From contig NZ_AP014879.1 in the NCBI RefSeq assembly GCF_002355735.1, positions 1,550,001-1,614,000 on the forward strand: 64,000 nucleotides of DNA, written 5' to 3'. Of the stretch, positions 21,108 through 45,655 are shown piece by piece. Made by a program: the position numbers and the translations under genes. How positions within the stretch are numbered: position 1 is the first letter of the stretch; each line of letters opens with the position of its first letter. The notes beneath the pieces were generated by a model that did no database searches, was not told where the DNA came from, and saw only the letters and a list, made by a program, of their open reading frames with translations. The DNA comes from Sulfuricaulis limicola. GTDB lineage: Bacteria > Pseudomonadota > Gammaproteobacteria > Acidiferrobacterales > Sulfurifustaceae.

Positions 21108-21118
21108 GGTTAGCCTCT

Positions 21119-26427: not shown

Positions 26428-27015
26428 ATGACGCAGGATGTATTGCCTGACGATGTGCGGAAGGGGCGCGCGAAGGACCTGCTCAGCCAGGGTCGCCTGG
26501 AAGAAGCGCGCGCCTTGCTGGCCGAGCTTTGCCAGGGCGATCAGCGCGACGTGGAGGCCTGGATCATGTACAGCGCCGCCTGCGCACATCTCGGAAACTT
26601 CGAGGACGTCATCACGGCGTGCCGCCGGGCGCTCGCCATCCAGCCGGACTATCTGCCGGCGCTGACCAACCTCGCCAGCGCTTCGGCGGCTCTGGGACGG
26701 CACGCCGAAGCCGCCGCTCAATTCGGCGATGTCCTGAGGTTTGCCCCGGACAACCCCGCGGTGCTCAATAATTACGCCCATGCCCTGATCCTCGCGGGCC
26801 GCGCCGGGGAAGCACGGGCTGCGCTGGAAAATGCCGTGCGCCTGCAACCGTATTACGCGGAGGCGCATTACAACCTGGCGATTCTGCTGGATCAGATCGG
26901 ACTGCCGGCGGAAGCCTTGCGCGAATACGAACAGGCGGCGACGCTGAAACCGGGCCTGCCCCGGCTCGAAGAACGCATGGCCCAGCTGCGGCAGTCCGCC
27001 GGACGCATGGCATGA
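26428..27015 (+). CDS. small TPR-repeat protein
   Basis: 195 residues made almost entirely of tetratricopeptide repeats (KDLLSQGRLEEARALLAELC, LGNFEDVITACRRALAIQPD, LPALTNLASASAALGRHAEA, AGRAGEARAALENAVRLQPY and EAHYNLAILLDQIGLPAEAL). No signal peptide and no enzymatic domain, so it is a likely cytoplasmic scaffold. Its repeats resemble the TPR halves of the neighbouring glycosyltransferases, sulfotransferase and methyltransferases. It converges with the GT41 gene (7-bp gap) and opens the modification island. The start ATG follows AGGGG by a few bases. Confidence 0.82.
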   Translation: MTQDVLPDDVRKGRAKDLLSQGRLEEARALLAELCQGDQRDVEAWIMYSAACAHLGNFEDVITACRRALAIQPDYLPALTNLASASAALGRHAEAAAQFGDVLRFAPDNPAVLNNYAHALILAGRAGEARAALENAVRLQPYYAEAHYNLAILLDQIGLPAEALREYEQAATLKPGLPRLEERMAQLRQSAGRMA

Positions 27016-27022
27016 ACCGGTC

Positions 27023-28915
27023 TCATCCTCCCGCCGTGTCGCGAACTCCCGTCCGCATCGCTTCATAAGCCGACTCCACCGTCCGCGCATAATCCCCGGC
27101 CGCGCACAGGCGCGACTGTTTGACGCGTTCGCGCAACTGTGCGCGGAGCCCGGCCAATTTTGCGCCATCGGCCGCGAGTTCGCGCCCTGTCGCGACATAG
27201 CGCTCGGGTGTGTCCGCGATCCATTCCGGAAATCCCGCCGCCGTCAGCAGGCTCGCCCCCACGCGCGCGCTGTGGCGATCGCCGCACAGGCTGACGACAG
27301 GCACGCCCATCCACAGCGCCTCGCAGGTTGTCGTGGTGCCGTTGTACGGAAACGTGTCCAGCGCCAGGTCGATGCGGGAATAGGCACCGAGATGACCGGC
27401 GTCATCCGGAATGTAGCCGATCAGGTCGAGACGCTCACCGGGAATTCCGGCCTCCGCAAACAGAGCCTGATAGCGTTCGCGCGTGGACCGGTCGGTCAAC
27501 GAAGGATTCTTCAGGACCAGCCGGCTGCCCGGCACAGCAAGTAACAGTCTCGCCCACAGCGCGATGACCTCCGGATTGACCTTGGCCAGATTGTTGAACG
27601 AACCGAAGGTGACGAAACCGTTCGTCTCGCATGGCGACCGTGCCGGCGGCGGCGCGTTCTCCGGCGGCCGGTAGCACAGGAAACATCCGGGCAGACGATA
27701 CAGCGATTCGGTGCAAAACCGCTCCGCGCCCGGCGGATCGGCGATGGCGTCGGAGAGGCGATAATCCATCCCGGTGACGCCGGTCGTATCGGGATAACCG
27801 ATAAAAGACACTTGCACCGGCGCTGCCCGGGATGCAAAGACGGTGAGCCGGTTGCCGGAGGTATGGCCGTTGAGGTCCACCAGGATGTCAATCGCATCAT
27901 CGGCGATGGCGCGCGACAACTGTGCATCGTCCATGTCGGCGACATCGCGCCAGCGATGCGCCAGACGCCGCAGCCGCCCGGTGGTGTCATCGGCTTCCTT
28001 GTGCGAGAAATAACAGGTGATTTCGTAACGCGCGGGATCGTGATGCGCCAGCAGCGGTTCGATGAAATAGGCCACCGAGTGCTTGCGCAGGTCCGCGGAC
28101 ACATAACCGATGCGCAGGCGCGCCGACCGTTCGCCGGCGGCCGCGATCGGCCCCGGCGCGGACGCGGGAACCGGGCGCGCCACGTTGCCCGGCCATTGGC
28201 GGTGGCGCTCCAGCAGCTCCACTGGATCCTGCCCGGCAAGATAATGCAGCGTGAGCAACATACTGGAATGGATGCGCGCATTGCGCGGTTCCAGCTTCAG
28301 CGCCGCGTCGAAATACTCGATGGATTCGCGGTATTTTCCCTGCATGCACAACGCCGCGGCCGCATTCTCCTGGATTTCGGCGAGCCGCGGATGCTTCAGA
28401 CGGATCGCCTTGTCGTAGGCGTTGATGGCGGCCTCGTAACGGCCCAGCGTCTGCATCGCGGACCCGTACACGGCGTAAAACTCGGCGTTGCCGGGCTGAT
28501 AGCGCAGTATTCCGCGAAACACCTCCTCCGCTTCCTCGTAACGGTGCAGCGCCGCGAGGACATGCCCGAGACTCGTGGCCGCGCCTTCGTGCCGCGGATT
28601 CAGCGCGAGTGTCCGGCGCAGGGCGGTCACGGACTTTTCCAGCTGACGCGTGTCACGCAGCGCAATGCCAAGGTTGTACCAGGCGCCGACATGCCGCGGA
28701 TTCAGCTCCACCGCCTTCGAACAGCAGGCCACGGCCTCGTCGTGCCGCTTGAGCATGCCGTTGATGGCGCCGAGCGTGTGCCAGCAGTCGGCATCGGTTT
28801 TGAGCCCGGCGCAGACCTGCTGATACACCAGCCGCGCCTCGTCGAAGCGGCGGGCGGCGATGAGGTCCTTGCCGAGCTTGAGCTTGGAGCGCAGAAGGAT
28901 ATCGGTCTGGGACAT
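27023..28915 (-). CDS. TPR-containing GT41 (O-GlcNAc transferase/SPINDLY-like) glycosyltransferase
   Basis: Residues 1 to about 235 are TPRs (LGAINGMLKRHDEAVACCSK, NLGIALRDTRQLEKSVTALR and others). From about residue 266 comes the OGT catalytic region: LRIGYVSADLRKHSVAYFIE, ILVDLNGHTSGNRLTVFASR, APVQVSFIGYPDTTGVTGMD, VTFGSFNNLAKVNPEVIALW, and the nucleotide-sugar loop DTFPYNGTTTTCEALWMGVP followed by GDRHSARVGAS. Family knowledge: these enzymes transfer a sugar from a nucleotide donor to Ser/Thr of proteins chosen by the TPR groove; donor and target here are unknown. 630 residues. It is downstream of the TPR-methyltransferase gene (120 bp gap), same strand. Confidence 0.9.
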   Translation of the reverse strand: MSQTDILLRSKLKLGKDLIAARRFDEARLVYQQVCAGLKTDADCWHTLGAINGMLKRHDEAVACCSKAVELNPRHVGAWYNLGIALRDTRQLEKSVTALRRTLALNPRHEGAATSLGHVLAALHRYEEAEEVFRGILRYQPGNAEFYAVYGSAMQTLGRYEAAINAYDKAIRLKHPRLAEIQENAAAALCMQGKYRESIEYFDAALKLEPRNARIHSSMLLTLHYLAGQDPVELLERHRQWPGNVARPVPASAPGPIAAAGERSARLRIGYVSADLRKHSVAYFIEPLLAHHDPARYEITCYFSHKEADDTTGRLRRLAHRWRDVADMDDAQLSRAIADDAIDILVDLNGHTSGNRLTVFASRAAPVQVSFIGYPDTTGVTGMDYRLSDAIADPPGAERFCTESLYRLPGCFLCYRPPENAPPPARSPCETNGFVTFGSFNNLAKVNPEVIALWARLLLAVPGSRLVLKNPSLTDRSTRERYQALFAEAGIPGERLDLIGYIPDDAGHLGAYSRIDLALDTFPYNGTTTTCEALWMGVPVVSLCGDRHSARVGASLLTAAGFPEWIADTPERYVATGRELAADGAKLAGLRAQLRERVKQSRLCAAGDYARTVESAYEAMRTGVRDTAGG

Positions 28916-29035
28916 GTATCAGGATGGCATCGGTGGCGCCGGCGGCATGGTCGTGGTCATGAGACTTCAGCCGTTTCGACGCATGCGACGGCCCGGATTC
29001 CCGGCCCGCGCCGTTCCGGCAGCCGTCGCGCGGCG

Positions 29036-30790
29036 TCAGTCAAAAGAATATTTTACCCGATAAACGCTCTCGGCCAGGATGAGCGGGCGGCGCAGAAGAT
29101 ACAACCGGCCTTGCACGTCCCGCCCCGACTCGCGGCGCAACACGGCGGCGTGACTTCCGACCTCGGTAAAGCCGGCGTCGGCGGCGAGCGCGCGGATGTA
29201 GTTGTCGGAATGGGCATAGCGTCCCGTTTGCCGCAACACGAATGTCCCGTTGTCGTCGCCGGTCTCGACGGAAAACGCCAGAATCCCGCCGGGTCTGAGC
29301 GCCGTGGCGCAGGCGGCGAATACCTCCCGCAGATCGCCCAGATAGACGAACACGTCGGCGGCGATGGCGAGGTCCCACGCAGCCGCTTTCGATCGCAGGC
29401 TGGCGGTGATGTCGCCAACTTCCAGCGCATCATACAGGTTGCCCTGTTTCGCCTTCTCGATCATCCGCGGGGAAAGATCGACACCCTGCATGAAATGCGC
29501 GATGTCACGGAAAAGCGGCGCGCACAATCCGGTGCCGCAGCCCAGGTCGATGATGTCCTGCGACTTCCCCGCCGGCGCCACATGCTGCCGCATCAGTTCA
29601 CGCAGCAGCTGCGGTGTGCGGTACTGCAGCGTTCCGACCAGCTTCTCGTCGAACGTGTCGGCTGCCTCGTCGAAAAGCGAGGCAACATAGGCGGCCGGCG
29701 CCGTGGATGGCGTGTCTCCCCGCTGCGCCGCCAGCAGGTGCCGCGCCTGGTCGTCGTGCGGGTTGATGCGCAGAATTTCCTCGAAATGTTTCGCCGCCTC
29801 TTCATGGTGGCCCGCGGCTTGCAGACCGAAGGCAAGCCGGTAATGCGCCTGCAGATGATCGTTGTCGAGCGCGATCGTCCGGCGATAAGCGGCTTCGGCC
29901 TTGCCGAACAGCCTCTGGACGCGAAAACTCTCCCCCATGAGGTAATGCACCCCGGGCAGATCCTGCCTGAGATCCAGGACTCTCCGGTAGCTTTCAACCG
30001 CGGCCGCAGGCTCGCCCAGCCGGTCGAGAACCATGCCCAGTCGCAGATGGGCCTCGGGGAATCCCGGCAGGAGGTCCGCGGCCTGCGCGTAGTGCCGGCG
30101 TGCCTGCTGAATTTCATCACGGCCTTCGAGCAGGCCCGCCAGCGTGAAGTGCGCCTCGCCGGTACGCGGCTCCAGGGCGATGGCGCGCATGGCCGCGGCT
30201 TCCGCCTCAGCGAACTTGCGCTGGCCGATTCTGGCCTGTGCCAACATGCTCCACGCCCGCACCAGTTCCGGCTCGATCTTCAGCGCCGCTTCATAGCCTG
30301 CCTCGGCTTCGGCGAACCTTCCCTGTGCCTGCAGGGCATTTGCCAGGTTGAAGTGCGCCGGCGCGGAGCCGGGTTGAAGCGCGAGCGACCGGTGGCAGCA
30401 TTCTTCAGCGCGAGTCAGCTGTTTCGCCAAGCCGTGGGCGATGCCGAGCGTCAGCCAGATATCGGCATTGTCCGGCTGCAACGCGGCCGCCTGCTGGAGC
30501 CGGTCAATCGCCGCCGCGTGTTCGCCGAGGGTCGCCAGCAACTTGCCAAGTCCGAATTGGGCCTCGACCTGGCCGGGATTGAGCTCAACCGCCCTGCCGA
30601 GCGCCATTAGGGCCGTGGCGCTGTCGCCGGTATCAGCGCTGACACAGCCATACAAAAACCAGTCATCGGATGTCGCGCCGGATGTCTCGCAAACCCGCCG
30701 ACACAGCTCGATCGCTTCCTGTGGCCGTCCGGTCCTGAACAGCTGCTCGACGCGGTCGGCCGTGGTGTTGCGCTGCGGGTCTGTCATCAT
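29036..30790 (-). CDS. TPR-containing class I SAM methyltransferase
   Basis: An array of roughly eleven TPRs fills the first ~370 residues (EAIELCRRVCETSG, LGKLLATLGEHAAAIDRLQQ, HFNLANALQAQGRFAEAEAG and others). The SAM fold follows: IIDLGCGTGLCAPLFRD (about residue 411), GVDLSPRMIEKAKQ, LAIAADVFVYLGDLREVF and LRPGGILAFSVET. Substrate unknown; the architecture is mirrored by the gene at 44129-45655. Two adjacent ATGs (30790, 30787) are possible starts. It sits between a GT41 gene and a PEP-CTERM gene on the same strand. Confidence 0.9.
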   Translation of the reverse strand: MMTDPQRNTTADRVEQLFRTGRPQEAIELCRRVCETSGATSDDWFLYGCVSADTGDSATALMALGRAVELNPGQVEAQFGLGKLLATLGEHAAAIDRLQQAAALQPDNADIWLTLGIAHGLAKQLTRAEECCHRSLALQPGSAPAHFNLANALQAQGRFAEAEAGYEAALKIEPELVRAWSMLAQARIGQRKFAEAEAAAMRAIALEPRTGEAHFTLAGLLEGRDEIQQARRHYAQAADLLPGFPEAHLRLGMVLDRLGEPAAAVESYRRVLDLRQDLPGVHYLMGESFRVQRLFGKAEAAYRRTIALDNDHLQAHYRLAFGLQAAGHHEEAAKHFEEILRINPHDDQARHLLAAQRGDTPSTAPAAYVASLFDEAADTFDEKLVGTLQYRTPQLLRELMRQHVAPAGKSQDIIDLGCGTGLCAPLFRDIAHFMQGVDLSPRMIEKAKQGNLYDALEVGDITASLRSKAAAWDLAIAADVFVYLGDLREVFAACATALRPGGILAFSVETGDDNGTFVLRQTGRYAHSDNYIRALAADAGFTEVGSHAAVLRRESGRDVQGRLYLLRRPLILAESVYRVKYSFD

Positions 30791-31081
30791 GGATTTGCTT
30801 GCACAATTAAATGGATTTTACGGGCTAACGCCCTGCTCCGGGCGGCATCAGATGCCTTCCCGCACGGCTTGCAGCGTCAACGGTACCTGAAATGGGGGAT
30901 GTTTTCCAAGCGAGCGGCCGGTATCGTGGGAACCCACCGGTTTGGCATGGCAGAAACGGATCAGCGTGTTCAGCGGCGCGACGACACGCGCTGAACATCG
31001 CTGATTTCGCGGACATCTCTCCGTGAGGCGGATAATGTGCCCGGGGCCGGCCCGTGCCCGGCGATCAAAAAACTTGTTTTT

Positions 31082-32341
31082 TCAGCTGCTGCGCCGGCGC
31101 CGCGCGACGCCCATCAGCCCGAGCAAGCCGGAACCGAACAACCAGGCCGCCGCCGGCACCGGCACGACGCTCGCCGTGCTCACATAGTCCGAGTGGCCGG
31201 TGGGAGCGATGAAGTCCAGCGTGCGCGAACCATCGGCACGCAACATGAACGCATAGCCGCCAAAGGCGTTGCTGTGCCAGACCGCGCCTGGCGTGCCGGC
31301 GGGAACAATCGTGACATCCCAGCGCTGGCCGCTGGCGCCGGTCGTGGGGTTGGAATCGGTCCGCATTTTCCGGCTGCCATCGGGATTGAACGAATCCGCG
31401 GAAACCCAGACGCCCGCCGGCACCACACCCGCGCCGAGGAATGAAACCAGGTTCTGATAAGCCGGATCGAGCGCGGCTCCGGATACCACACCGTTGGCAT
31501 CGAGCGGATTGATGGCGGGATTGCTGTTGTTCATCACCGCGCTGCCGGAAAAGTTCATGGGCACGCCTTCGACGGTGGTGGTGGTCACGACGTAATCACC
31601 GTAACTGCGCATGACGAAGCCCGGGATCAACTGCGTCGAGGAGAACGTGCCGGGATTGGTGCCATAGTCGTAATACACGTCCATGGCGAAATCGAAGGTC
31701 ACCTGCCCCGCCATGATGCCGACGCCGTTGGGGTCGGCGTTGAGCACCGAGCCGCACCATCCCTGCGCGTCCGAGATCGCGTACGGCTGGAAGTTGAAGA
31801 ACGTGTCTTTTGTCGTGCTGGCCTTGATTCCGGCCGTGTCCGAGTACTTGAACACGTCGTAGAAGCCGAACGACATGTCGCTTTTGCCGATATTATAGTT
31901 GCCGGCCTTGTCTATCTGCATGTTGCTGAAGGTGCTGTTGACTGGCGTCGTGTAGGCCCATTGGTAAAAATTCACCGCCCCGTCCATGTTAGCCCGGGGA
32001 TACGGCGATGAACTCGTGGTTGAATCCGTCAGCTCCCGGTAGGCGTCGTACGGTGCATCGCGCGTGATTCCGTCGGGATTGTTCGTGATGACATGCTGAA
32101 CCTGGCCGATGCGCGAGGCATCGAAGCCGGACCCAACCTGGAAATCATTCGCACCGACGCCCGTCGGACCGGTGTAACCCCAATCGTTGAAAGTGATGGC
32201 ACCGGTTGTGCCGGAACTGATGGTGGGATCAATGGTCGTGGTCCACGTGGTCGGTGTTGCCGCCATGAGCACCGGACTCACCATCGAAACAAGCGCCGCA
32301 CCGATGCCGCTGGCAAGCGTTTTCCTCGTCACGTCTTTCAT
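31082..32341 (-). CDS. PEP-CTERM surface protein embedded in the modification island
   Basis: Signal peptide MKDVTRKTLASGIGAALVSM (cut near LMAA), a 360-residue Thr/Ser/Asn/Gly-rich body (TTWTTTIDPTISSGTTGAIT, YRELTDSTTSSSPYPRAN, VVTTTTVEGVPMNFSGSAVM) and sorting tail VVPVPAAAWLFGSGLLGLMG then VARRRRSS. Not a member of the NFTMLD family. The ATG at 32341 is preceded by AGGAGGAGTGAA; a longer open frame to 32425 lacks a ribosome site. It is flanked by GT41 (upstream) and TPR-methyltransferase (downstream) genes on the same strand, which makes it a natural candidate substrate for them. 419 residues. Confidence 0.9.
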   Translation of the reverse strand: MKDVTRKTLASGIGAALVSMVSPVLMAATPTTWTTTIDPTISSGTTGAITFNDWGYTGPTGVGANDFQVGSGFDASRIGQVQHVITNNPDGITRDAPYDAYRELTDSTTSSSPYPRANMDGAVNFYQWAYTTPVNSTFSNMQIDKAGNYNIGKSDMSFGFYDVFKYSDTAGIKASTTKDTFFNFQPYAISDAQGWCGSVLNADPNGVGIMAGQVTFDFAMDVYYDYGTNPGTFSSTQLIPGFVMRSYGDYVVTTTTVEGVPMNFSGSAVMNNSNPAINPLDANGVVSGAALDPAYQNLVSFLGAGVVPAGVWVSADSFNPDGSRKMRTDSNPTTGASGQRWDVTIVPAGTPGAVWHSNAFGGYAFMLRADGSRTLDFIAPTGHSDYVSTASVVPVPAAAWLFGSGLLGLMGVARRRRSS

Positions 32342-32618
32342 TTCACTCCTCCTGTCGATCTGGTTTTGAAGCACATTGGTGCCTTCCAGGCTGATGAATG
32401 GGGACCTTTGCGGAATTCCCCTCAATCACGATCCAGCGCCCGGTTTCTTGAACGGCGATCAACACGAGACCATAAAAACCATGGAATTATCAGTGCCTTT
32501 TGTTACATATTTCCTCATTGAGACTACTTTATTTTTCACGACCGGCTCGATCATGCAATGTTTCGCGTCGGGAAAGACACAAAAAAGCTCTATTGATCCG
32601 GCTGAATGCATCCCGGCA

Positions 32619-34436
32619 TCATTGAACAATCAGATCCTTGAGCACTCTGGTCATCTCCGCGCCGCACCACTTCGAATCGAGAAATTTCGGCGGCTTGGTC
32701 ATTCTCTGGCTGATCTCTTTGGCAAGTTGCCGGCGTTTTTCCCGGTCCTGTCCCAATTCCACGGCCAGGCGAATAAACGCTTCCTCGTCGGAGGCGATCA
32801 GCTGCGGGAGATCCATGTCGCGCAACGCGCCTGAGGCCATCCGGGAGCGCTGTGAATTTCCCTCCAGCACGACGGTCGGAACGCCGACCAGCAAGGGGTC
32901 AATCAGGGAGGTCATGCCGGAATGCGGAAAGGAATCCAGGTAAACATCCGCCACGCTGCCCAGCATGGCCCGGACATCGGCGATATCCGGCAATGGCGGC
33001 TTGATCGCCACGCGATTGACGTCAATGCCGAGCCGCTTGCAGGTGGCCGTAATGCGCAGGAACAGCGGACCCACGAAATAATAATTCGTCCAGTTCAGAT
33101 TGAAGGGATAGAGCAGCAGTCTCGAACCGGGGGTGGCCGCCAGGATCCGGATCCAGGTTTCCTCCAGCTCGGGCGTAATCTTGAAGAAATTCGCCCCCGC
33201 GGCGTAGACCGTCACATCTTCGGGAATCCCCAGCATGGCCCGGCTGATGTTTTGAGTCGCCGCCCGTTCGTTCTGCTGTCCGAAATCGAAACAGAGAACG
33301 GGGCCGTCCATGCACACCAGCTTTTCCGTGTAATGCTCCTGCGCGCCTTTGACCGGCTCGGAAAGATGGCCGGAGACGAACACGTCCAGATTATGAAACC
33401 CGGTCGTGACCGGCGAGCAACCGCCCGTGAGCTGAAGGCGCGCCAGGCGATGCGCGCACAACTGCACGAAAGTGGACGTTCCGGCGGCCAGGTTGGTCCC
33501 GATCCAGATGGCATCAAGGTCCAGGGCGCGGATGATTTCAACGGATGCCTTGATGTCAGCGGGTATCTCCACCAGCCGGTCGGCGCGTGCGGAGCAATAT
33601 TTCTCCAGCTCCGCGCTCTTCTTGTCGCGGATGGCGCGCGTGATGAGAACGACCTCGATGGCGTCGCGGTCGAGATGCGCGAACACCGGCAGGGTCGCGA
33701 AGGTCTCGGACCGGGGGTCAAGGTCCTGCATGAGCACGCCGAAGCGGATGCGGCCGCCGTCCCGCGCGCGCGGACCGAACTGGAAATCGGGCCGGGCGTC
33801 CCACAGTTCCTGCGCGAGTTCGATCAGCTCGGCACGCTTGCGGCAGAGATCGCGCAGGTTGTGCCAGGAAAAATAAAGTGACACGAAGGAGGCGTACTGC
33901 AGGAACGCACGCAACACTTCCTGCCAGTGGGCGGAAGAACGATTAGCCAGGATATTGGCGTGGAGATAATCCACCCAGCGCGAAACATTCCGGTAGTAAA
34001 GCTCGATCTCGCCCTTCTCCCTGAACAACCACTGCTGCCCCAACACGCACCGGAACACGGTGCGCAACATCCAGACGGGAATGCCGGGCAATGTTTCGCA
34101 GGGCAGGTACTTGTATGGATTTTCATAGAGCGACGCCGCCAGGACCGCGTTCAGGGCGGCGTGATTCGCATTGTCCCCGGTCACCTGCCGCATCACTTCG
34201 GCGACAAACTCCCGCTCCTGATCCAAAGCGGGATATCCCGAGATACCGCCATTGAGCATCGTGAAGCAGGCTTCACCGAAGTCGCTCTTGTAGAGCGGTT
34301 CCAGCCGGGCAGGTGGCGTCGCCAGCAGCGTCCGCGCCATCTCGTGCCGGAGACCGAGCATGCGCCGCGCCCAGATGAGGTCCGCCGGGTTCCTCCCCAG
34401 CTGTGTCAAAATTTCTTCGAGGCGTTGTGAATACAT
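32619..34436 (-). CDS. divergent GT41-like glycosyltransferase without clear TPRs
   Basis: The first ~220 residues are helical without obvious TPR periodicity (QRLEEILTQLGRNPADLIWA, WVDYLHANILANRSSAHWQE). From about residue 228 there is an OGT/SPINDLY-like double Rossmann region: IRFGVLMQDLDPRSETFATL, DLDAIWIGTNLAAGTSTFVQ, LQLTGGCSPVTTGFHNLDVF, FFKITPELEETWIRILAATP, and the donor-binding equivalent SFPHSGMTSLIDPLLVGVPT with EGNSQRSRMASGAL. That places it near GT41, but it is clearly divergent from the copies at 27023 and 39042, so donor or acceptor may differ. 605 residues. Confidence 0.8.
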   Translation of the reverse strand: MYSQRLEEILTQLGRNPADLIWARRMLGLRHEMARTLLATPPARLEPLYKSDFGEACFTMLNGGISGYPALDQEREFVAEVMRQVTGDNANHAALNAVLAASLYENPYKYLPCETLPGIPVWMLRTVFRCVLGQQWLFREKGEIELYYRNVSRWVDYLHANILANRSSAHWQEVLRAFLQYASFVSLYFSWHNLRDLCRKRAELIELAQELWDARPDFQFGPRARDGGRIRFGVLMQDLDPRSETFATLPVFAHLDRDAIEVVLITRAIRDKKSAELEKYCSARADRLVEIPADIKASVEIIRALDLDAIWIGTNLAAGTSTFVQLCAHRLARLQLTGGCSPVTTGFHNLDVFVSGHLSEPVKGAQEHYTEKLVCMDGPVLCFDFGQQNERAATQNISRAMLGIPEDVTVYAAGANFFKITPELEETWIRILAATPGSRLLLYPFNLNWTNYYFVGPLFLRITATCKRLGIDVNRVAIKPPLPDIADVRAMLGSVADVYLDSFPHSGMTSLIDPLLVGVPTVVLEGNSQRSRMASGALRDMDLPQLIASDEEAFIRLAVELGQDREKRRQLAKEISQRMTKPPKFLDSKWCGAEMTRVLKDLIVQ

Positions 34437-34864: not shown

Positions 34865-35725
34865 ATGCCAGAATTCGATTATCTGGTTGGTGGGCACAAA
34901 ATCCGGCTCCCGGAAGGCCACGCCCTGCCCGACTACCAGAGCCGGTACAGGCGTTATGACTACACGCTGGGCGAACTCGCCGGAATCGTATCAGAAAAAT
35001 ATCCGGGCTCTCCCCGAATTGATGTTGGGGCCAACATCGGGGACTCCTGGGCGTTGATGAACAAGCACGTCATCACGGAAACGCTCCTGATTGAGGGCGA
35101 CCCTGCCTACACCAACCTGCTGAAGTTTAACGTAAACCGGCTGGGTCACCCGGCGCAGGTTTGCGAAGCCTTCTGCGGAACGACGAGCGGGACCGTTTCA
35201 GAGCAAAGCATCCGGAGGACCGGAGCCGGGACGTCCAGCATCAACAATGCCGCCGCGCCCGCGGGCGATGCGACCATACCGATCCTCACCTTCCATGAAA
35301 TTCTCGATCGGCATCCTGTTTTCAAGTCATCCAGACTCATCAAGCTCGATACCGACGGATACGATTTCGGCATCCTTGAAGCCTATGCTTCGCTTTTTTC
35401 GCAAATGCAGGCGACGGTTTACTATGAGTGCGCGCCTTTCGAACAGGAAAGGGGCCTGGACGAGAGCTTAAAATCCTTTCAGGAACTGGTTAAATTCTTC
35501 AAATATTATGTCGTCTATGACAATTTCGGACACTTCATGTGCAGCATGGAAGGCGACAACCTGCTCGAAAAATATCTCGAATTGATGGTGTTTCTGGTTT
35601 CAAATAGAGTAGACGGCGCAGCGGTTTATTATTTCGACATTGCGGCATTTACTCCAGACAATAAAGACTTGTTTTTAAAATTGAAGGATCTTGAAATATC
35701 CCGTTTTTTCAGGCGCCACTCGTGA
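34865..35725 (+). CDS. FkbM-family methyltransferase
   Basis: Rossmann-fold methyltransferase of the FkbM type, often acting on sugar hydroxyls in glycan synthesis. The SAM-binding signature is RIDVGANIGDSWALMNK (about residue 57), followed by ETLLIEGDPAYTNLLKFNVN, RLIKLDTDGYDFGILEAYAS and TVYYECAPFE, which is the FkbM acidic loop pattern. 286 residues, cytoplasmic. First gene of a tight plus-strand operon: FkbM, GT4, TPR-sulfotransferase, TPR-GT41 with gaps of 15, 22 and 39 bp. AAGGTAAGG just upstream could serve as ribosome site. Confidence 0.85.
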   Translation: MPEFDYLVGGHKIRLPEGHALPDYQSRYRRYDYTLGELAGIVSEKYPGSPRIDVGANIGDSWALMNKHVITETLLIEGDPAYTNLLKFNVNRLGHPAQVCEAFCGTTSGTVSEQSIRRTGAGTSSINNAAAPAGDATIPILTFHEILDRHPVFKSSRLIKLDTDGYDFGILEAYASLFSQMQATVYYECAPFEQERGLDESLKSFQELVKFFKYYVVYDNFGHFMCSMEGDNLLEKYLELMVFLVSNRVDGAAVYYFDIAAFTPDNKDLFLKLKDLEISRFFRRHS

Positions 35726-35740
35726 GGCCTCATTTCGTGA

Positions 35741-36925: not shown

Positions 36926-36947
36926 GATCAATTCACCCGGGCCCGAC

Positions 36948-39002: not shown

Positions 39003-39041
39003 CGACATGCCGCACTGGCGCTGAACGGCGGAATGATTTGA

Positions 39042-41042
39042 ATGGGCACCAGAGATGAAGCCATCGCCGCCCACCGGCGCGGGGATCTCGTCAAGGCGGA
39101 GCGTCTCTATCGCCATCTGCTCCGTGCCGCCCCGTCGGACGCGGAACTTCACTACTGTCTCGGATTGCTTTGCTTTCAAACCAGCCGCGCGCGCGAAAGC
39201 ATCCAGTGGCTGCAACAGGCCCTCGCTCTGGCTCCCGCGTCCGGCCCGACGCTGCAACTGCTGATCCGCGTCAGCGTTGAGACCGGCGATGCCGAAGGCG
39301 CCCTCGCCTCGCTCGATCGTTATCTCGCGCTGCATCCCCATGATGCCGGGATGCTTCATCTCAAAGGTCAGCAACTCGCGCGCCTGGGGAAACTGCGCGA
39401 CGCCGAGCGCGCTTTCTTTCAGGCGGCCGAACGTACCGGTGAGGCGGCGATGCATCACGATCTGGGACTGTGCCGGCAATTGCAGGGAAACCTGCCGGGG
39501 GCGATACAGGCCTACCGCGAGGCGATCCGGCGCGGACACGATCATCCCCGCACAAGATTGTGGCTGGCCCAGTGCCTTCGCGCAGTTGGACGAATCCGCG
39601 AGTACTACGAGACCGCCACGGGCGCGACCGGCGACGCGCTGAATGACATCGAGCTGGCCATCGAGGCGCAGACCGCGCGTCGCTACGTGTGCGACTGGGA
39701 AGGCGTCGAGACCAACCAGCCCGCCTTCATGGCCGGTCTGCAGAGCGCGCTGAAGCAGGGCAGCGGCGCGAGCATTCCGCCCGGCATCCTGAACTTCATG
39801 GAGGTGGACGAGCCAACCATCGCATCAGCCGCAAAAAAATATGCACGTCAGCTGGCCACGGCCGGCGATGCATTGCGACAGAAGCTCCGCAGGCCGCCCG
39901 CGCGCGGCGATACGGGAAAACTGCGCGTGGGTTATCTGTCCACCGATTTTTTTGCCCACGCCGTCGGTTTCCTGGTGCGCGATCTCTTTGCCTGTCACGA
40001 TCGCACGCGTTTCGAAATTTGCGGATACTCGCTGCGGCATCATCCTGATGAAGTGCAGGCGCGCATACGGGAAGGCTGCGACACGTACCGCAATCTTGCC
40101 GGAAAAAATCCGGAAGAAATCGCGCATGCGATCCTCGGCGACCGGATCGACATCCTGATCGATCTGGCGGGTTACACCAGCGCGGCGCAGCCGGCGGTCC
40201 TCGCGGCCCGTCCGGCGCCGGTCCAGATTTCCTGGCTCGGCTACCTCGGGACCAGCGGCGCGGATTTCATCGACTACCTCATCGCCGATGACGTCGCGCT
40301 GCCGGAGGAACTGGCCGGGGATTACACCGAACGCATCATCCGCCTGCCGCATTTCATGATTACGTCGCCGTTATCCACTTCGGAAAAAAGTCCCTCGCGC
40401 GAGGCGCTGGGGCTGGGCAACGATGGATTCGTGTTTTGCAGTTTCAACCAGCCTTACAAGCTCGACCGGAGAACCTTCGGGGCATGGATGGATATCCTGC
40501 GGCGGGTCCCGGGAAGCCGGTTGTGGATGTACGTCCCCGATCTGGAGGCATGCGGCGGCAACCTGCGGCGCGAAGCGATGCGCCTGGAGGTGGATCCCGG
40601 CCGTCTGGTTTTTGCCGGGAGCGAACCGATGGCGCAACATCTGGCGCGGATGGCGCTGGCTGACCTGGCGCTCGATCCGTTCCACATCAGCGGCGGCGCC
40701 ACTTCCGTCGCAGCGCTGTACGCAGGTGTCCCGGTCCTGACGCTGCGAGGACAATCGTTCCTCGCGCGCATGGGTAGCTCGATAAACTCCCGTCTCGGGA
40801 TGGACGCTCTCGATTGCACGACGCCGGAGCAATACGTAATGACCGCCGTCGAGCTGGCGCTGAATCCCGCGGCACTGGCGGCGGTCAAGGATCAGCTCAA
40901 GGAGACACGGCGAACGCACCGCTTCTTCGACACCGGCGCGTTTGTGCACTCGCTGGAGGAGGCGCTGCGGATCGCCTGGGAACGCCATGCGGCCGGACAG
41001 GCGCCGGCCGACATCAGGGTGACGGACTCGCCATCGGGCTGA
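39042..41042 (+). CDS. TPR-containing GT41 (O-GlcNAc transferase/SPINDLY-like) glycosyltransferase
   Basis: TPR half (EAIAAHRRGDLVKAERLYRH, YCLGLLCFQTSRARESIQWL, RLGKLRDAERAFFQAAERTG) to about residue 190, then a helical linker. The catalytic region starts at about residue 294 (LRVGYLSTDFFAHAVGFLVR) and continues with ILIDLAGYTSAAQPAVLAAR, APVQISWLGYLGTSGADFID, VFCSFNQPYKLDRRTFGAWM and the donor loop LDPFHISGGATSVAALYAGV with RGQSFLARMGSS. 666 residues. Last gene of the FkbM operon, converging with the PEP-CTERM array. Confidence 0.9.
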   Translation: MGTRDEAIAAHRRGDLVKAERLYRHLLRAAPSDAELHYCLGLLCFQTSRARESIQWLQQALALAPASGPTLQLLIRVSVETGDAEGALASLDRYLALHPHDAGMLHLKGQQLARLGKLRDAERAFFQAAERTGEAAMHHDLGLCRQLQGNLPGAIQAYREAIRRGHDHPRTRLWLAQCLRAVGRIREYYETATGATGDALNDIELAIEAQTARRYVCDWEGVETNQPAFMAGLQSALKQGSGASIPPGILNFMEVDEPTIASAAKKYARQLATAGDALRQKLRRPPARGDTGKLRVGYLSTDFFAHAVGFLVRDLFACHDRTRFEICGYSLRHHPDEVQARIREGCDTYRNLAGKNPEEIAHAILGDRIDILIDLAGYTSAAQPAVLAARPAPVQISWLGYLGTSGADFIDYLIADDVALPEELAGDYTERIIRLPHFMITSPLSTSEKSPSREALGLGNDGFVFCSFNQPYKLDRRTFGAWMDILRRVPGSRLWMYVPDLEACGGNLRREAMRLEVDPGRLVFAGSEPMAQHLARMALADLALDPFHISGGATSVAALYAGVPVLTLRGQSFLARMGSSINSRLGMDALDCTTPEQYVMTAVELALNPAALAAVKDQLKETRRTHRFFDTGAFVHSLEEALRIAWERHAAGQAPADIRVTDSPSG

Positions 41043-41073: not shown

Positions 41074-41104
41074 GCTAAAAAAACTGCTACCTATATATAC
41101 CCAG

Positions 41105-41926
41105 TCAGGCCGTTGCCTTCCTGCGACGCGCGACACCGAGCAATCCCAGCAGGCCCGAGCCGAACAACCACACCGCCGCCGGCACCGGGATCGGATTCAT
41201 GTTGGCGTTGAAGTTGGCATTGAAACCGTGGAACGGTCCGCCGGCCGGCAAGGAGATACCCATGACGCCGTCACCGTCGCCGTCGGTCGAGGCCAACATC
41301 CATACGGTGGAACCGGCCGGCTTGTTGACGGGAAAACCGCCCGCATAGCCCGGGCCATCCCACAGGCAGTTCGTTTGCGTGGCCAGTCCACCGAATGCAC
41401 ATCCACTTGGATTTGAACTGTTGGCAATACCGGAGCCAAACACGCTGTTCTGGTTCGCCACCACGAACACGTCGATGTTCTTGGTAATATTCCAATCGAA
41501 CAGCATGTGCATGCCAATCTGGCCGGCGCCGACGGTCACATTCTGGAAGCCCACTTCGAAGTCCGCCGGGTCGGCACCCGCCGTGACATCGAAACTGTAG
41601 CTGCCCGGCAGGAACACCTGGATGTCATGCGCGCTCCAGGGCATGCCGAAAAATGGGGTCGTGGAAGATGCGGTCACATTCGCGGCGCCGCCCGGGCCGG
41701 TGTAGTCCGAGCTGGCATTGTAGGCATTGCCGTCCCACTTCATTGATACGTCGTTGGTGCCGCCGACCATATAACCGGTAGGATCCAGCATGGTGAAGTT
41801 GGCGCGGTCGGTGACCCAGCTATAAGGACCGAATACGTTGGCGACGAGCGCCGCGTTGGCGGCCGGAGCGCCGAGGGCCAGGGCAAGACTGGACACAAGC
41901 AGGGATTTTTTCATGATGGGATTCAT
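41105..41926 (-). CDS. PEP-CTERM surface protein, NFTMLD family (array copy 3)
   Basis: Signal peptide MNPIMKKSLLVSSLALALGA (cut near ANAA). The body has TDRANFTMLDPTGYMVGGTN, NASSDYTGPGGAANVTASST, GQIGMHMLFDWNITKNIDVF and TNCLWDGPGYAGG. The sorting tail is IPVPAAVWLFGSGLLGLLGV then ARRRKATA. The ATG at 41926 follows GAGGAGAAGAC closely; upstream in-frame Met (41968) has no ribosome site. 273 residues. Last of three tandem paralogues transcribed together toward the terminator at 41042-41073. Confidence 0.92.
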   Translation of the reverse strand: MNPIMKKSLLVSSLALALGAPAANAALVANVFGPYSWVTDRANFTMLDPTGYMVGGTNDVSMKWDGNAYNASSDYTGPGGAANVTASSTTPFFGMPWSAHDIQVFLPGSYSFDVTAGADPADFEVGFQNVTVGAGQIGMHMLFDWNITKNIDVFVVANQNSVFGSGIANSSNPSGCAFGGLATQTNCLWDGPGYAGGFPVNKPAGSTVWMLASTDGDGDGVMGISLPAGGPFHGFNANFNANMNPIPVPAAVWLFGSGLLGLLGVARRRKATA

Positions 41927-42003
41927 TGTCTTCTCCTCTTTGGTGGTTGATTTATGAAGTCGTTTCAAAAAACCGGATCAAACCGCACTGTCACGAATAC
42001 TGC

Positions 42004-42846
42004 TTAACTATGCCGTACGTTCTTCTTGCGGCGCGCGACACCGAACAATCCCAACAGGCCCGAGCCGAACAGCCACGCCGCGGCCGGGAGCGGTATGGGA
42101 TCTATCACCACGGGTGCCAGGTTGGCATTAAAGTTGAAATTGTGCCCTTGGAATGCAGAACCGGTGGCACCCGGAATACCCATGATGCCATCGCCGTTGC
42201 CATCGGTAGAGGACAGCATCCAAATGGTGCTGCCGGCGGGTTTGTTGCTACTGAGCCCACCCGCATAGCCTGGACCATCCCATAAGCAGTTCTGGATGGT
42301 TCGGTCGTAGACAGAATTGCAGCCGGAAGGATTCGCGCTGTGGGCAATACCGGGACCGAAAACGCTATTCGCAGCCCACACCACAAACAGATCCATGTTT
42401 TTCACGGAATTCCAGTCGAACAGCATGTGCATGCCGAGCTGGCCGCTGCCGACCATCGCGGTCAACGTGCCTGTCTCGTAGTCATTAGGATGACCGCCTG
42501 CCGTCACATCGAAGGAGTACGTGCCCGGTATAAAGACCTGAATGTCGTGCGCCGTCCACATATGTCCGAGAAAACTGGTCGTCGACGAAGCGGTCAGGTT
42601 TGCGGCGCTGCCCGGGCCAGCGTAGTCGGAGCTGGCATTGTAGGCGTTACCGTCCCACGCGATGGCGATGTCATTGGTGCCAGCCCAGACATAACCAGTC
42701 GGATCAAGCAAGGTCATGTTTCCTCGGTCGGTGTACCAGTTGTAGGGGCCAAGCACATTAGTAACAAGTGCGGCCTGGGCATTCGTTGCCCCGAGCGTCA
42801 CAGCAATAGTGGAAGCAATGAGCGCTTTTTTCATGCGCGGATTCAT
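42004..42846 (-). CDS. PEP-CTERM surface protein, NFTMLD family (array copy 2)
   Basis: Signal peptide MNPRMKKALIASTIAVTLGA (cut near AQAA). The body follows the family (TDRGNMTLLDPTGYVWAGTN, NASSDYAGPGSAANLTASST, VFGPGIAHSANPSGCNSVYD, NCLWDGPGYAGG). The tail is PIPLPAAAWLFGSGLLGLFG then VARRKKNVRHS. A GAGGAGAAG ribosome site precedes the ATG at 42846. 280 residues. Gaps to its array neighbours are 77 and 80 bp and themselves look alike, as expected if gene plus leader were duplicated as a unit. Confidence 0.92.
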   Translation of the reverse strand: MNPRMKKALIASTIAVTLGATNAQAALVTNVLGPYNWYTDRGNMTLLDPTGYVWAGTNDIAIAWDGNAYNASSDYAGPGSAANLTASSTTSFLGHMWTAHDIQVFIPGTYSFDVTAGGHPNDYETGTLTAMVGSGQLGMHMLFDWNSVKNMDLFVVWAANSVFGPGIAHSANPSGCNSVYDRTIQNCLWDGPGYAGGLSSNKPAGSTIWMLSSTDGNGDGIMGIPGATGSAFQGHNFNFNANLAPVVIDPIPLPAAAWLFGSGLLGLFGVARRKKNVRHS

Positions 42847-42926
42847 CGCGATCTTCTCCTCTTTAGTGATGGATTCTTAATATTATTTCGAATGCACCGG
42901 TCAGACTGAACTGCTGCGAATTTTGC

Positions 42927-43805
42927 TTAATGGTGCCGGACACCCCTCCTGCGGCGCGCGATACCGAGCAACCCCAACAGGCCCGAGCCGAGCAGCCAGA
43001 CAGCGGTCGGCACGGGGACTTCCGGCGGCGGGGGACAGTCGCCGCACTCGATCACGTTCAGCGAGGTATTGAAGTTGGCGTTGAAACCCTGGAACGGGCC
43101 ACCGCTTGCCATCGGGATACCCATGACACCGTCACCATTGCCATCAACCGACGCCATCATCCACACCGTGCTGCCGGCCGGCTTGTTGGCGGAAAGACCA
43201 CCCACGGAAAAACCACCCACATAACCCGGGCCGTCCCACAGGCAGTTCGGAACGGTCGCCGCCGCAGTGAAATCGCAACCGCTGGTGTTGGAACTGCGGG
43301 CGATGCCTGAACCGAAAGTGCTGTTCAGGGAAAACACCACGAACATGTCTATGTTCCTGGCCTTCCAATCAAACAGCATGTGCATGCCGATCTGGCCGGT
43401 GCCAACAGTAACATTAAGAAAGCCTGTTTCTGTGTCTGACGGATCGCCACCCGCACTGGCGTCAAAAGAGTAACTGCCCGGCATAAACATCTGGATGTCA
43501 TGCGCGGCCCAGGTGTGACCGAAGAACGGCGTGGTGGACGAAAGCGTGACATTCGCGGCGCCGCCCGGGCCGGTGTAGTCCGAGCTGGCGTTGTAAGCGT
43601 TGCCATCCCACAACATGGCGATGTCGTTGGTGCCACCTACGGTATAACCCCCGCCATCCAGCATGGTGAAGTTGGCACGGTCGGTAGTCCAATTGTGGAA
43701 GGGACCGAATATATCGGTGACAAGCGCCGCTTGGGCGCTCGGAGCGCAGAGGGCCAGGGCGAGACTAGAGGCAAGCAGAGTTTTCCGGATCGACGGCGGA
43801 TGCAT
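42927..43805 (-). CDS. PEP-CTERM surface protein, NFTMLD family (array copy 1)
   Basis: Signal peptide MHPPSIRKTLLASSLALALC (cut near AQAA). Family body (TDRANFTMLDGGGYTVGGTN, NASSDYTGPGGAANVTLSST, GSGIARSSNTSGCDFTA, NCLWDGPGYVGG with an extra FSVGGLS). A Cys/Pro spacer IECGDCPPPPE precedes the tail VPVPTAVWLLGSGLLGLLGI then ARRRRGVRHH. The ATG at 43805 has a GGAGGAG site upstream; the longer open frame to 43967 is not supported. 292 residues. First gene of the array. Confidence 0.91.
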   Translation of the reverse strand: MHPPSIRKTLLASSLALALCAPSAQAALVTDIFGPFHNWTTDRANFTMLDGGGYTVGGTNDIAMLWDGNAYNASSDYTGPGGAANVTLSSTTPFFGHTWAAHDIQMFMPGSYSFDASAGGDPSDTETGFLNVTVGTGQIGMHMLFDWKARNIDMFVVFSLNSTFGSGIARSSNTSGCDFTAAATVPNCLWDGPGYVGGFSVGGLSANKPAGSTVWMMASVDGNGDGVMGIPMASGGPFQGFNANFNTSLNVIECGDCPPPPEVPVPTAVWLLGSGLLGLLGIARRRRGVRHH

Positions 43806-44128
43806 GACTGGGCTCCTCCATGTTGTTATTTTGTGGAAACTGACTGCGGCCGGATTTAAGTTACGCCTTGCCCGGGAGACTGGCAAGTAATTCACGCCGG
43901 CGTGACTGCGAACCGCAGTCCGCTCAATTCCGGTGCGACCGGCCCGGAAATGCGGTGACCGATGCATCCCGGCCGGAGAGTCCTTATGTCATTTCCAATC
44001 CAATCCACGGGTTGGCGCGTTTCCTTTGCCCGCCTGCCAGCATGGAGCCCGCGCATGGATCGGCCTTGCCGCCAGCGTGACCTGTATCAGTCAATTATCG
44101 GCGATAACCTATATAATGATCGGGGTTA
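43806..44128. other. 323-bp divergent intergenic region
   Basis: Separates the PEP-CTERM array (minus) from the TPR-methyltransferase (plus). It contains a candidate minus-strand promoter (43858-43886), an inverted repeat GACTGCG-AAC-CGCAGTC (43904-43920) just upstream of it, and a plus-strand TATAAT at 44112-44117. No gene was seen. Confidence 0.5.
43858..43886 (-). promoter_or_regulatory. candidate sigma-70 promoter of the PEP-CTERM array
   Basis: On the minus strand: -35 TTGCCA (43881-43886), 17-bp spacer, -10 TAACTT (43858-43863). The -35 matches 5 of 6 and the -10 only 3 of 6. The 17-bp inverted repeat at 43904-43920 could be an operator. No sigma-54 box was found here, unlike the related gene at 24895. 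Confidence 0.3.
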
Positions 44129-45655
44129 TTGGAAATTCCTTGGTGTCTCTTGGAAAGCGCAGCACTCAAGCAACAGGCGTTAGACGACATACGCAGCGGC
44201 CGGATGCGCCCTGCCCTGCAACTCCTCTCCCGGGCGTGCGAGCAGGACAACCGCGATCCCGAGATCTGGTTTTACCTCGGCGCTGTTTACGGATCGCTCG
44301 GTGACGCTCCCAATGCGGAAAAATCCTTTCGCGCGGCCATCGCCCTGCGCCCGGATTTCGTGCAGGCTCGCTTCAATCTGGCCAACGCCCTCGGGGACCA
44401 GGGCCGGCTGGCGGAGGCGGAGGCGGAATATCGCGCCGTGACCACCCTTGCGCCACAACATGCCATGGCCTGGTGCGCGCTCGGGTATGTCTGCGCCAAG
44501 CAAGACAGACTCGCGGAGGCCGAACAGGCGGCGCGGCGCGCGCTCGCGCTGGCGCCGAATACCGCCGAACCCTATGCTGCCCTCGCCAGCGTGCACCTGG
44601 CGAAAAAAGAACTGGCTGAGGCGATAAAGCAGTGCACAAAAGCGCTTGAGCGCGACCCGAATTCAATTTCGGCGCTGGTCAACCTCGGCCTGGCGCATAA
44701 AACGGCGGGAAGATTTTCCGAGGCGAAAAGATTTTTCAATCGCGCCCTCGCCATCCAGCCACGGCTGCCCGAAGCGCATTACACGCTCGGCGTGATTTTT
44801 CTGCACGAGGGCAACATGGATGAAGCCGAGTCCGCGTTTTTTCTGGCCCTGGATCATGACCCGCGCAACGTCCACGCCTTCGAACAACTCGGCGCGCTGC
44901 TGCGACACCGCGACAAGCGCGGGAAGGCGCTGGAGCTGTACCGGCGTTTTGCCGAGGCCTGTCCGGAGCATCCGGACGCCAAATTTTTCCTCGCTGTCCT
45001 GGAAGGCGGCGAGGACCCCGGGCGCATACCCGTCGAGCTGCTCGCCGAGCGCTATCGCGACGAACAGGTCGCCAGCACGTTCGACGAAGGCATGACCAAA
45101 AAACTGGATTACGTCGTCCCGGTACGCCTGAAAGAACACATGTCCGGACTGCTCGGCAGCGAATCCGCGAATCTGGATGCCCTGGACCTCGGCTGCGGCA
45201 CCGGCCTTTACGGTTCCGTAGTGAAACCCTGGACGCGGCGCCTCGTCGGAGTGGACCTCTCCGCCGTCATGCTGGCGGAAGCCAGGCGCAAGGGCGTGTA
45301 TGACGAATTAGTGCAGGGCGAACTGATCGAGACACTGGATGCCATCGACACGCAATACGATCTCGTGATAGCGATGGACGTTCTGGTGTTCTTCGGCGAT
45401 CTCGCGCCGATTTTCGAACGCGTGAAGAAAGTATTGCGCCCGCGAGGGCTGTTCATCTTCGATCTTGAAAAGGCGGACGAGTCGCATCGCTGGCAACTGC
45501 ACATCTTCGGCAACTACGTGCATTCGCGCGGCTATATCACCGAGTTGGCCGGACGTCACGGTTTTTCCGAGTTGCTGTGCGAAGAGCTCGATATACGCAA
45601 GGAGGTAAATTCGTACATCAAGGGACACCTGGTATTTTTCCGAAGCACGCAATAA
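44129..45655 (+). CDS. TPR-containing class I SAM methyltransferase
   Basis: TPRs fill residues ~10-300 (RSGRMRPALQLLSRACEQ, YLGAVYGSLGDAPNAEKSFR, LAKKELAEAIKQCTKALERD and more). A SAM-dependent methyltransferase domain follows: LDALDLGCGTGLYGSV (about residue 350), GVDLSAVMLAEARRKG, YDLVIAMDVLVFFGDLAPIF and VLRPRGLFIFDLEKAD. Same architecture as the gene at 29036-30790. Start uncertain: TTG at 44129 or TTG at 44150. A TATAAT at 44112-44117 would put the transcript start at about 44124, which favours the later one. Substrate unknown. Confidence 0.87.
   Translation: MEIPWCLLESAALKQQALDDIRSGRMRPALQLLSRACEQDNRDPEIWFYLGAVYGSLGDAPNAEKSFRAAIALRPDFVQARFNLANALGDQGRLAEAEAEYRAVTTLAPQHAMAWCALGYVCAKQDRLAEAEQAARRALALAPNTAEPYAALASVHLAKKELAEAIKQCTKALERDPNSISALVNLGLAHKTAGRFSEAKRFFNRALAIQPRLPEAHYTLGVIFLHEGNMDEAESAFFLALDHDPRNVHAFEQLGALLRHRDKRGKALELYRRFAEACPEHPDAKFFLAVLEGGEDPGRIPVELLAERYRDEQVASTFDEGMTKKLDYVVPVRLKEHMSGLLGSESANLDALDLGCGTGLYGSVVKPWTRRLVGVDLSAVMLAEARRKGVYDELVQGELIETLDAIDTQYDLVIAMDVLVFFGDLAPIFERVKKVLRPRGLFIFDLEKADESHRWQLHIFGNYVHSRGYITELAGRHGFSELLCEELDIRKEVNSYIKGHLVFFRSTQ

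Follow-up and report, generated by a model that had tools for sequence, protein, structure and literature searches.

TPR-bearing glycosyl-, sulfo- and methyltransferases beside a new surface-protein domain in Sulfuricaulis limicola: a candidate cytoplasmic modification island

Closest described systems and the Sulfuricaulis island

Bacterial enzymes that modify a protein before its export are known from a few systems. In Caulobacter, the N-terminal tetratricopeptide repeat (TPR) domain of FlmG binds flagellin, which is O-glycosylated in the cytoplasm by the C-terminal GT-B domain before export (PMC7591256); HMW1C is a GT41-like enzyme that modifies an adhesin prior to secretion (PMC2877744); and sulfation by RaxST takes place in the cytoplasm and is followed by secretion, the same source adding, as an unpublished observation, that bacterial protein-tyrosine sulfotransferase (TPST) genes often lie beside genes for exported proteins (PMC9372746). 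The PEP-CTERM/exosortase system, with PrsK, PrsR and PrsT, includes TPR proteins that Haft and colleagues suggested in 2006 might guide covalent modification, citing O-GlcNAc transferase (OGT) (PMC1569441), and MYXO-CTERM proteins use the type II secretion system (T2SS; PMC11980579). Here we describe an island on the single chromosome (2,864,672 bases) of Sulfuricaulis limicola HA5, a sulfur-oxidising bacterium, in which genes for TPR-bearing glycosyl-, sulfo- and methyltransferases are interleaved with genes for surface proteins, a rare family sharing a domain named PEPfam; it lies in a window of 64,000 nucleotides (chromosome positions 1550001-1614000), to which all coordinates refer. Little is understood so far of what PEP-CTERM proteins do, and, to our knowledge, bacterial GT41 and TPR-sulfotransferase clusters largely lack an assigned function except in relation to flagellin and RaxX.

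We propose that the island is a cytoplasmic, TPR-addressed station glycosylating, sulfating and methylating PEPfam proteins before export, a reading of the sequences that seems on balance probable. The TPR superhelices would hold the unfolded, unexported PEPfam chain, to which three GT41 enzymes (one SPINDLY-like, one OGT-like and one divergent) would add sugars at Ser or Thr, the TPST-like domain would add sulfate, most simply at Tyr, and class-I methyltransferase domains would add methyl groups on residues or sugars; the chain would then be exported by Sec, processed at its C-terminus by the exosortase XrtD (VPLPA tails) or by a myxosortase-like protease (Cys tail), and moved outward, plausibly via the neighbouring T2SS. 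Of this scheme, the sequences show the gene content, the conserved linkage of PEPfam to the enzymes, the common TPR module, one natural exchange of a TPR domain between enzyme classes and the closest catalytic relatives; that the enzymes act in the cytoplasm and on PEPfam, which sugar is used, where sulfate and methyl are placed and that the T2SS is the route are inferences. Modification before export is the simplest order because no export signal is evident by inspection in the GT41 and TPST-like enzymes and the PEPfam proteins have one; an earlier note on this DNA, made from its letters alone, had raised this order as a caveat, and precedents for it exist in FlmG (PMC7591256), HMW1C (PMC2877744) and RaxST (PMC9372746). 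More tentatively, and at less than an even chance, one swappable TPR domain on glycosyl-, sulfo- and methyltransferases may direct several chemistries to a single new surface domain anchored by two C-terminal signals, so that bacterial O-fucosylation or O-GlcNAcylation and tyrosine sulfation would meet on one exported family.

The island resembles these systems in parts and differs from each. Unlike in the FlmG system, the S. limicola genome has no match to flagellin (PF00669), the candidate substrate is a new surface-protein family, and sulfo- and methyltransferases carry the same TPR module. The SPINDLY- and OGT-like enzymes are bacterial, clustered and placed beside surface proteins, the third GT41 being divergent and without the conserved His. 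The sulfotransferase, unlike RaxST and the TPSTs, is TPR-fused, and its acceptor is putative. With the PEP-CTERM/exosortase system the locus shares XrtD, VPLPA tails, PrsK, PrsR, PrsT and an exopolysaccharide (EPS) export neighbour, whereas the TPR enzymes, a FadL-type protein and a Cys-tailed protein are additions. Among the papers listed on PEP-CTERM with sulfotransferases, on PEP-CTERM with glycosylation and exosortase, on TPR sulfotransferases with tyrosine sulfation and on GT41 with surface proteins (12 of 312 in this last case), no title or abstract opening describes such a system, a coverage outside which most subscription papers lie. The island points to a putative substrate family and a module for its recognition and supplies a domain swap made by nature, so that a single pair of enzyme and substrate suffices to test the question. 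If the proposal is true, tyrosine sulfation and SPINDLY/OGT-type glycosylation enter the surface-protein and biofilm biology of environmental bacteria, and the TPR domain is a portable address tag for protein modification.

The earlier note had confined the island to 26428-45655. Every enzyme gene that it listed was found in its place; the limits were too narrow, with four VPLPA-CTERM genes lying to the left (18410-25722) and FadL-type, tandem PEPfam and myxosortase-like genes to the right (46207-55581). A type II secretion cluster (6659-18403) flanks the island on one side and the PrsR-PrsK-PrsT genes on the other. The surface-protein and enzyme genes are as follows.

18410-19120 (-), PEPfam VPLPA-CTERM surface protein
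19207-20037 (-), PEPfam VPLPA-CTERM surface protein containing SSTDYTGPG
23412-24011 (-), VPLPA-CTERM protein without a PEPfam domain
24895-25722 (-), PEPfam VPLPA-CTERM surface protein with SSSDYTGPG; sigma-54-like site 162 bp upstream
26428-27015 (+), stand-alone TPR protein with the shared N-terminal module
27023-28915 (-), GT41_A, SPINDLY-like TPR-GT41 (Pfam GT41; Arabidopsis SPINDLY 1.2e-127)
29036-30790 (-), TPR-methyltransferase 1 (class I, S-adenosylmethionine)
31082-32425 (-), VPLPA-CTERM surface protein without a PEPfam domain; homologues in G006, G007 and G116
32619-34436 (-), GT41_B, divergent GT41 with no recognisable TPR and first-lobe His replaced by Arg
34865-35725 (+), FkbM-family methyltransferase, accessory; no match in other island loci
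35741-36925 (+), GT4-type glycosyltransferase, accessory
36948-39002 (+), TPR-sulfotransferase with catalytic domain nearest protein-tyrosine sulfotransferases
39042-41042 (+), GT41_C, OGT-like TPR-GT41 without the shared N-terminal module
41105-41968 (-), PEPfam VPLPA-CTERM surface protein
42004-42846 (-), PEPfam VPLPA-CTERM surface protein
42927-43967 (-), PEPfam protein with a VPLPA-like tail under the curated cut-off
44129-45655 (+), TPR-methyltransferase 2

The enzymes and their shared N-terminal module

Comparisons were made with 116 surveyed relatives, numbered from G000 (S. limicola itself) and including G006 (same genus) and G011 (Sulfurifustis variabilis skN76, a single contig), and with further genomes such as G116 (a groundwater metagenome-assembled genome), G119 (Thiogranum) and G120 (Thiohalobacter thiocyanaticus). 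The three GT41 genes, all within 14 kb, are the only ones of the S. limicola genome, and their products all exceed the curated cut-off of Pfam Glyco_transf_41 (94-220 bits against 25). SPINDLY is the nearest solved relative of GT41_A (1.2e-127, over about 560 residues) and OGT that of GT41_C (3.4e-59); GT41_B is divergent (SPINDLY at 7e-19), and its predicted model (pLDDT 74) has SPINDLY and bacterial OGT as closest folds. The earlier note spoke of TPR-fused glycosyltransferases, which needs correcting for the 605-residue GT41_B, in which Pfam finds no TPR. The conserved second-lobe Lys is invariant in 15 of 15 aligned GT41 rows, and the conserved first-lobe His is kept in GT41_A and GT41_C and is Arg in GT41_B. 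HMW1C-type N-glycosylation was considered because the window's PEPfam proteins are rich in NxS/T sequons, with 3 to 10 in each protein (1.1-2.3 per 100 residues). It was set aside as the leading idea, since the N-glycosyltransferase model NF049992 gave GT41_A 32.1 of the required 1000 bits and GT41_B no match (those two were scanned) and 3 of 11 rows lack the sequon in the PEPfam core alignment, although all 10 rows of the second domain keep an NTT. In G046, two genes that on inspection look like gmd and fcl (GDP-fucose synthesis) are found about 9 kb past the tandem PEPfam gene, which fits O-fucosylation, and none were among the genes called in the other stretches examined. In G005 (L088:2-10945) a GT41 is close to an open frame, at least 3647 residues long, whose sequence is partly of repeat-protein and RTX-like type.

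For the sulfotransferase domain, the best solved relatives are protein-tyrosine sulfotransferases (8w5z at 3.1e-11, TPST2 at 1.2e-9). Its PRSGT, GE and K columns align with those of the TPSTs and hold the Arg of the 5'-phosphosulfate-binding motif (5'-PSB) that binds 3'-phosphoadenosine-5'-phosphosulfate (PAPS), the catalytic Glu and the Lys. The earlier note had surface proteins O-glycosylated and the sugars then sulfated and methylated; the link to surface proteins stands, and sulfation of the sugars is not favoured because the enzyme is closest to TPSTs. PF13469 includes small-molecule enzymes as well, so Tyr is a putative acceptor. Candidate targets are the S[ST]DY[TA]GPG sites found in five window PEPfam proteins and three of G116; Asp precedes 8 of 55 PEPfam tyrosines against 31 of 491 in other, non-PEP-CTERM proteins of the window, an excess that is not independent enrichment because the PEPfam sites are homologous. 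TPR-methyltransferase 2 has generic solved relatives alone. The GT4 and FkbM genes, which had been counted as core parts, did not keep that place: in 28 island loci, at a threshold of 1e-5, FkbM has no match and GT4 three distant ones (E ~1e-10).

A hidden Markov model (HMM) derived from the N-terminal 100 residues of 11 island GT41s defines an N-terminal module that crosses the enzyme classes. Island TPR-sulfotransferases score 41.2-104.4 (median 92.3, n=14) and control TPR-sulfotransferases 6.0-49.4 (median 32.1, n=24), with 12 of the 14 outscoring all 24 controls; the island group includes L130 of G007:C67 (103.7), initially a control and moved because its neighbour is PEPfam. The TPR-methyltransferases reach 56.6-104.0 (n=7) and the lone TPR protein scores 73.9; PrsT, with four rows in which one protein appears twice, stays at 20-31. 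Nine further rows, from G119 (six sulfotransferases and one methyltransferase) and G120 (two sulfotransferases, one already counted), run from 31.9 for a fragment and 36.1 for a complete protein up to 96.1; a tenth row repeats a G116 protein. The suggestion that a TPR module is common to several enzyme classes is borne out by HMM scores and a domain swap; in the window the module is common to the SPINDLY-like GT41, the sulfotransferase, both methyltransferases and the lone TPR protein.

The swap is seen in G011, where the TPR part of the methyltransferase is 53.6% identical to that of the neighbouring GT41 over 237 residues, 56.8% identical to that of the G007 GT41 and 35.1% identical to that of the nearest methyltransferase (G007), whereas its catalytic domain is 55.7% identical to the G007 methyltransferase. 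Such an exchange is what one would expect if two enzymes need one recognition surface, repeat recombination between neighbours being the alternative. On a tree of 44 modules the enzyme class changes 13 times (minimum 3, shuffled mean 20), so that class still clusters; most branches are weak, and the starred ones require two or more changes for GT41 and likewise for methyltransferases. Repeat recombination as the source of the TPR similarity also belongs to the idea of linkage without function, in which paralogous TPR and surface-protein genes simply gather in a fast-evolving region. The near-identity of the tandem repeats within one PEPfam gene (2 differences in 525 bases) and a variable gene number (an array of at least six TPR-sulfotransferases in G119) fit this idea, yet the island recurs in three families of the order and in Thiogranum and Thiohalobacter, the order FadL-PEPfam-export gene is similar between genomes, and the one whole-domain TPR swap left the catalytic part unaffected; we consider it very unlikely.

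Another explanation gives the TPR enzymes more than one exported client: PEPfam, but also the other VPLPA-CTERM protein, FadL and subtilases. The S. limicola genome has five sulfotransferase matches, one in the island and two more TPR-fused ones together at 2.81 Mb (L064:6060-14132); these two lack the island module and adjoin, in divergent orientation, a 1344-residue autotransporter-like gene. This neighbourhood speaks for several clients, as does the non-PEPfam VPLPA protein at 31082, which accompanies GT41_B, the TPR-sulfotransferase and GT41_C in G116. The two enzymes at 2.81 Mb, however, score 33 and 38 for the module, inside the control range, and PEPfam is the common protein of the compared islands, which makes this explanation unlikely. 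Control TPR-sulfotransferases of G051, G053 and G054 were found by eye near genes with an autotransporter-like extended signal peptide N-terminus, and other controls (L122, L123, L129 and L131) adjoin genes with TonB-dependent-receptor-like ends, also by eye; a wider link of TPR-sulfotransferases with outer-membrane proteins is possible.

PEPfam proteins and their association with the enzymes

The S. limicola genome has 19 VPLPA-type tails at E <= 0.0014, 13 of them over the cut-off, and eight of the 19 fall in 1.1% of the chromosome (binomial P ~2e-11, for an interval chosen post hoc and with tandem duplication uncorrected). Just outside the window lies the gene for XrtD, the exosortase specific for VPLPA tails (591.9 bits, cut-off 400), so that the tail and the enzyme that together define VPLPA-CTERM/XrtD sorting occur in one genome. 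The four PEP-CTERM genes reported earlier are present, all on the (-) strand; in the genome search three of their tails (31082, 41105 and 42004) pass the curated cut-off and that of 42927 does not (21.8 of 25.35 bits), and in a protein scan 31082 (20.9) and 41105 (21.6) also score under it. PEPfam is common to six of the eight island-region VPLPA proteins. The PEPfam proteins scanned match no Pfam or NCBIfam body model above cut-off, only tail models, PEP-CTERM families such as PepA giving hits under the threshold; the predicted PEPfam model has a pLDDT of 52. A near-consensus sigma-54 site stands at 25885-25900, 162 bp upstream of the PEPfam gene 24895 only.

The PEPfam alignment (A1) finds the domain in 7 of the 116 relatives (G000, G007, G011, G024, G029, G033 and G046), which belong to one order and three families. 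The earlier note had proposed a search for co-occurrence, and all seven indeed carry GT41, being among the 29 relatives that do (Fisher p 3.3e-5, a test that ignores phylogeny), and in all of them a GT41 is found within 6 kb of PEPfam. An exosortase is present in six of the seven; G046, 97% complete, has no exosortase match but retains GT41, TPR-sulfotransferases, FadL, the tandem PEPfam gene, the protease and the export gene. Since G046 keeps the cassette without an exosortase match, the partner of the enzymes is better defined as the PEPfam domain than, as had been supposed, as PEP-CTERM proteins generally. A second related domain (A2) occurs in 6 of the 116 relatives, and its 13 strong copies all lie within 8 kb of a GT41 or TPR-sulfotransferase; of two weaker matches, one duplicates a protein already listed, and the 3.1 kb examined for the other (G033:C164, 46 residues) contain no recognised enzyme. 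G006 has a TPR-methyltransferase, a TPR-sulfotransferase, FadL, protease and export gene, with GT41, A1 and A2 unmatched.

Scanning further genome contigs with A1 returned 12 loci on 11 contigs, five of them from G007, G024, G029, G033 and G046 (G011 was not returned), and thus six further PEPfam genomes. Three of these, G116, G119 and G120, have GT41 and TPR-sulfotransferase beside PEPfam; in G116, relatives of GT41_B, the TPR-sulfotransferase and GT41_C lie between three PEPfam genes and the homologue of 31082. At the level of the whole genome, G118 and G121 carry a TPR-sulfotransferase as well. Over all 13 PEPfam genomes, GT41 is present in 10 and TPR-sulfotransferase in 12. The TPR-sulfotransferase and PEPfam on G007:C67 were dropped as an independent second locus because T2SS and subtilase genes of the same superlocus were found on a further stretch.

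Flagellin was rejected as the partner of GT41, with no co-occurrence in the 116 relatives (8 of 29 with GT41 against 23 of 87 without, p 0.54, phylogeny ignored). The earlier note had named flagellin targets as a refutation; flagellin-linked GT41s do exist (G111, G063 and, about 9 kb away, G078), but the five checked are poor in the module (23-41). GT41 does co-occur with exosortase (13 of 29 against 14 of 87, p 0.0024, phylogeny ignored), more weakly than with PEPfam. This co-occurrence would suit enzymes that modify exopolysaccharide or its lipid-linked precursor and are located here as part of an XrtD/EPS region, as would the Wza-like EPS export gene that follows the cassette in S. limicola, G006, G007, G011, G024, G029, G046, G119 and G120 (on the G033 contig it was not observed). 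Nevertheless, GT41_A, GT41_C and the sulfotransferase have polypeptide-modifying enzymes as their close solved relatives, GT41 is in every PEPfam-bearing relative (7 of 7), and G024:C14 carries sulfotransferase, GT41 and PEPfam on a separate contig, all of which render an EPS target quite improbable.

Several observations count against pre-export modification of PEPfam proteins, in addition to the disregard of phylogeny in the co-occurrence test. The EPS export gene is equally a conserved neighbour, and linkage is no proof of substrate. GT41 is unmatched in three of the 13 PEPfam genomes (G117, G118 and G121), and G117 also has no match over the sulfotransferase domain. The module also occurs, at scores of 80-96, in GT41s from genomes in which PEPfam is unmatched (G002, G013, G014 and G045) and hence is not PEPfam-specific; it is absent from GT41_B and low in GT41_C (18.9) and in three Thiogranum GT41s (21-40), two of the 14 island sulfotransferases (41.2 and 43.4) fall inside the control range, and the best TPR match crosses enzyme class in only 4 of 40 enzymes. 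Asp-Tyr is absent from the PEPfam proteins seen in the sulfotransferase-bearing G024, G029, G033, G046, G119 and G120. Common sigma-54 control of the PEPfam genes is unsupported, the 46 matches observed being at chance level (43.7 expected) and 24895 alone having a good upstream site.

The tandem PEPfam gene, the nearby myxosortase-like protease and the flanking genes

The remaining genes of the window that bear on the proposal are listed here.

6659-18403 (+), type II secretion cluster (GspD, E, F, H, K, L, N; GspC below cut-off; NCBIfam, Pfam)
46207-47655 (+), FadL/OMPP1/TodX-family outer-membrane protein (Pfam PF03349)
47705-49105 (+), tandem PEPfam protein, two near-identical copies; Cys, transmembrane and Arg tail resembling JDVT/MYXO-CTERM
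55135-55581 (+), myxosortase/MrtJ-like Rce1-type intramembrane protease (EEWFFR, HALSN)
55496-56299 (+), Wza-like EPS export protein (NCBIfam TIGR03027 below cut-off, 136.5 of 180)
56483-57835 (-), PrsR, PEP-CTERM-box response regulator
57845-59947 (-), PrsK, XrtA/PEP-CTERM histidine kinase
60501-62894 (-), PrsT, XrtA/PEP-CTERM TPR protein

The gene at 47705, adjoining the FadL-type gene, encodes two PEPfam domains, and its product ends in Cys, a transmembrane segment and Arg, not in VPLPA. The two copies (47819-48343 and 48377-48901, period 558) differ at 2 of 525 bases, a near-identity that reflects very recent duplication or ongoing homogenisation. A FadL homologue stands beside the tandem PEPfam gene in 11 of the 13 PEPfam genomes.

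Both the tail and a nearby CPBP protease with EExxxR and HxxxN motifs recall the JDVT-CTERM/MrtJ and MYXO-CTERM/myxosortase pairs (PMC11980579). The protease at 55135 has both motifs and the Pfam Rce1-like match; since it scores 59.6 of 75 bits with the MrtJ model, below the cut-off, and the JDVT-CTERM model NF033191 does not match the tail at E <= 10, the pair is filed as JDVT/MYXO-like and not as a member. G006, by contrast, has a bona fide JDVT-CTERM in the protein at the equivalent place (39.1 bits against a cut-off of 27). Protease relatives with both motifs occur in G006, G007, G024, G029, G033 and G046; EExxxR is absent from the ORFs examined at the protease place in G011 and G120, and the Cys from the corresponding tails of G120 and G117.

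In S. limicola two large exported genes at 49778-54996, the second with subtilase and IPT/TIG domains, separate the tandem PEPfam gene from the protease gene, which unlike here follows directly in relatives such as G007, G024 and G046. The T2SS cluster has an equal position relative to the island in G007:C67 and G002:C222. The myxosortase-like frame is open upstream of its first ATG, GTG or TTG (55015-55135), where homologues have about 30-45 residues more at their beginning; translation may start at a non-standard codon such as CTG.

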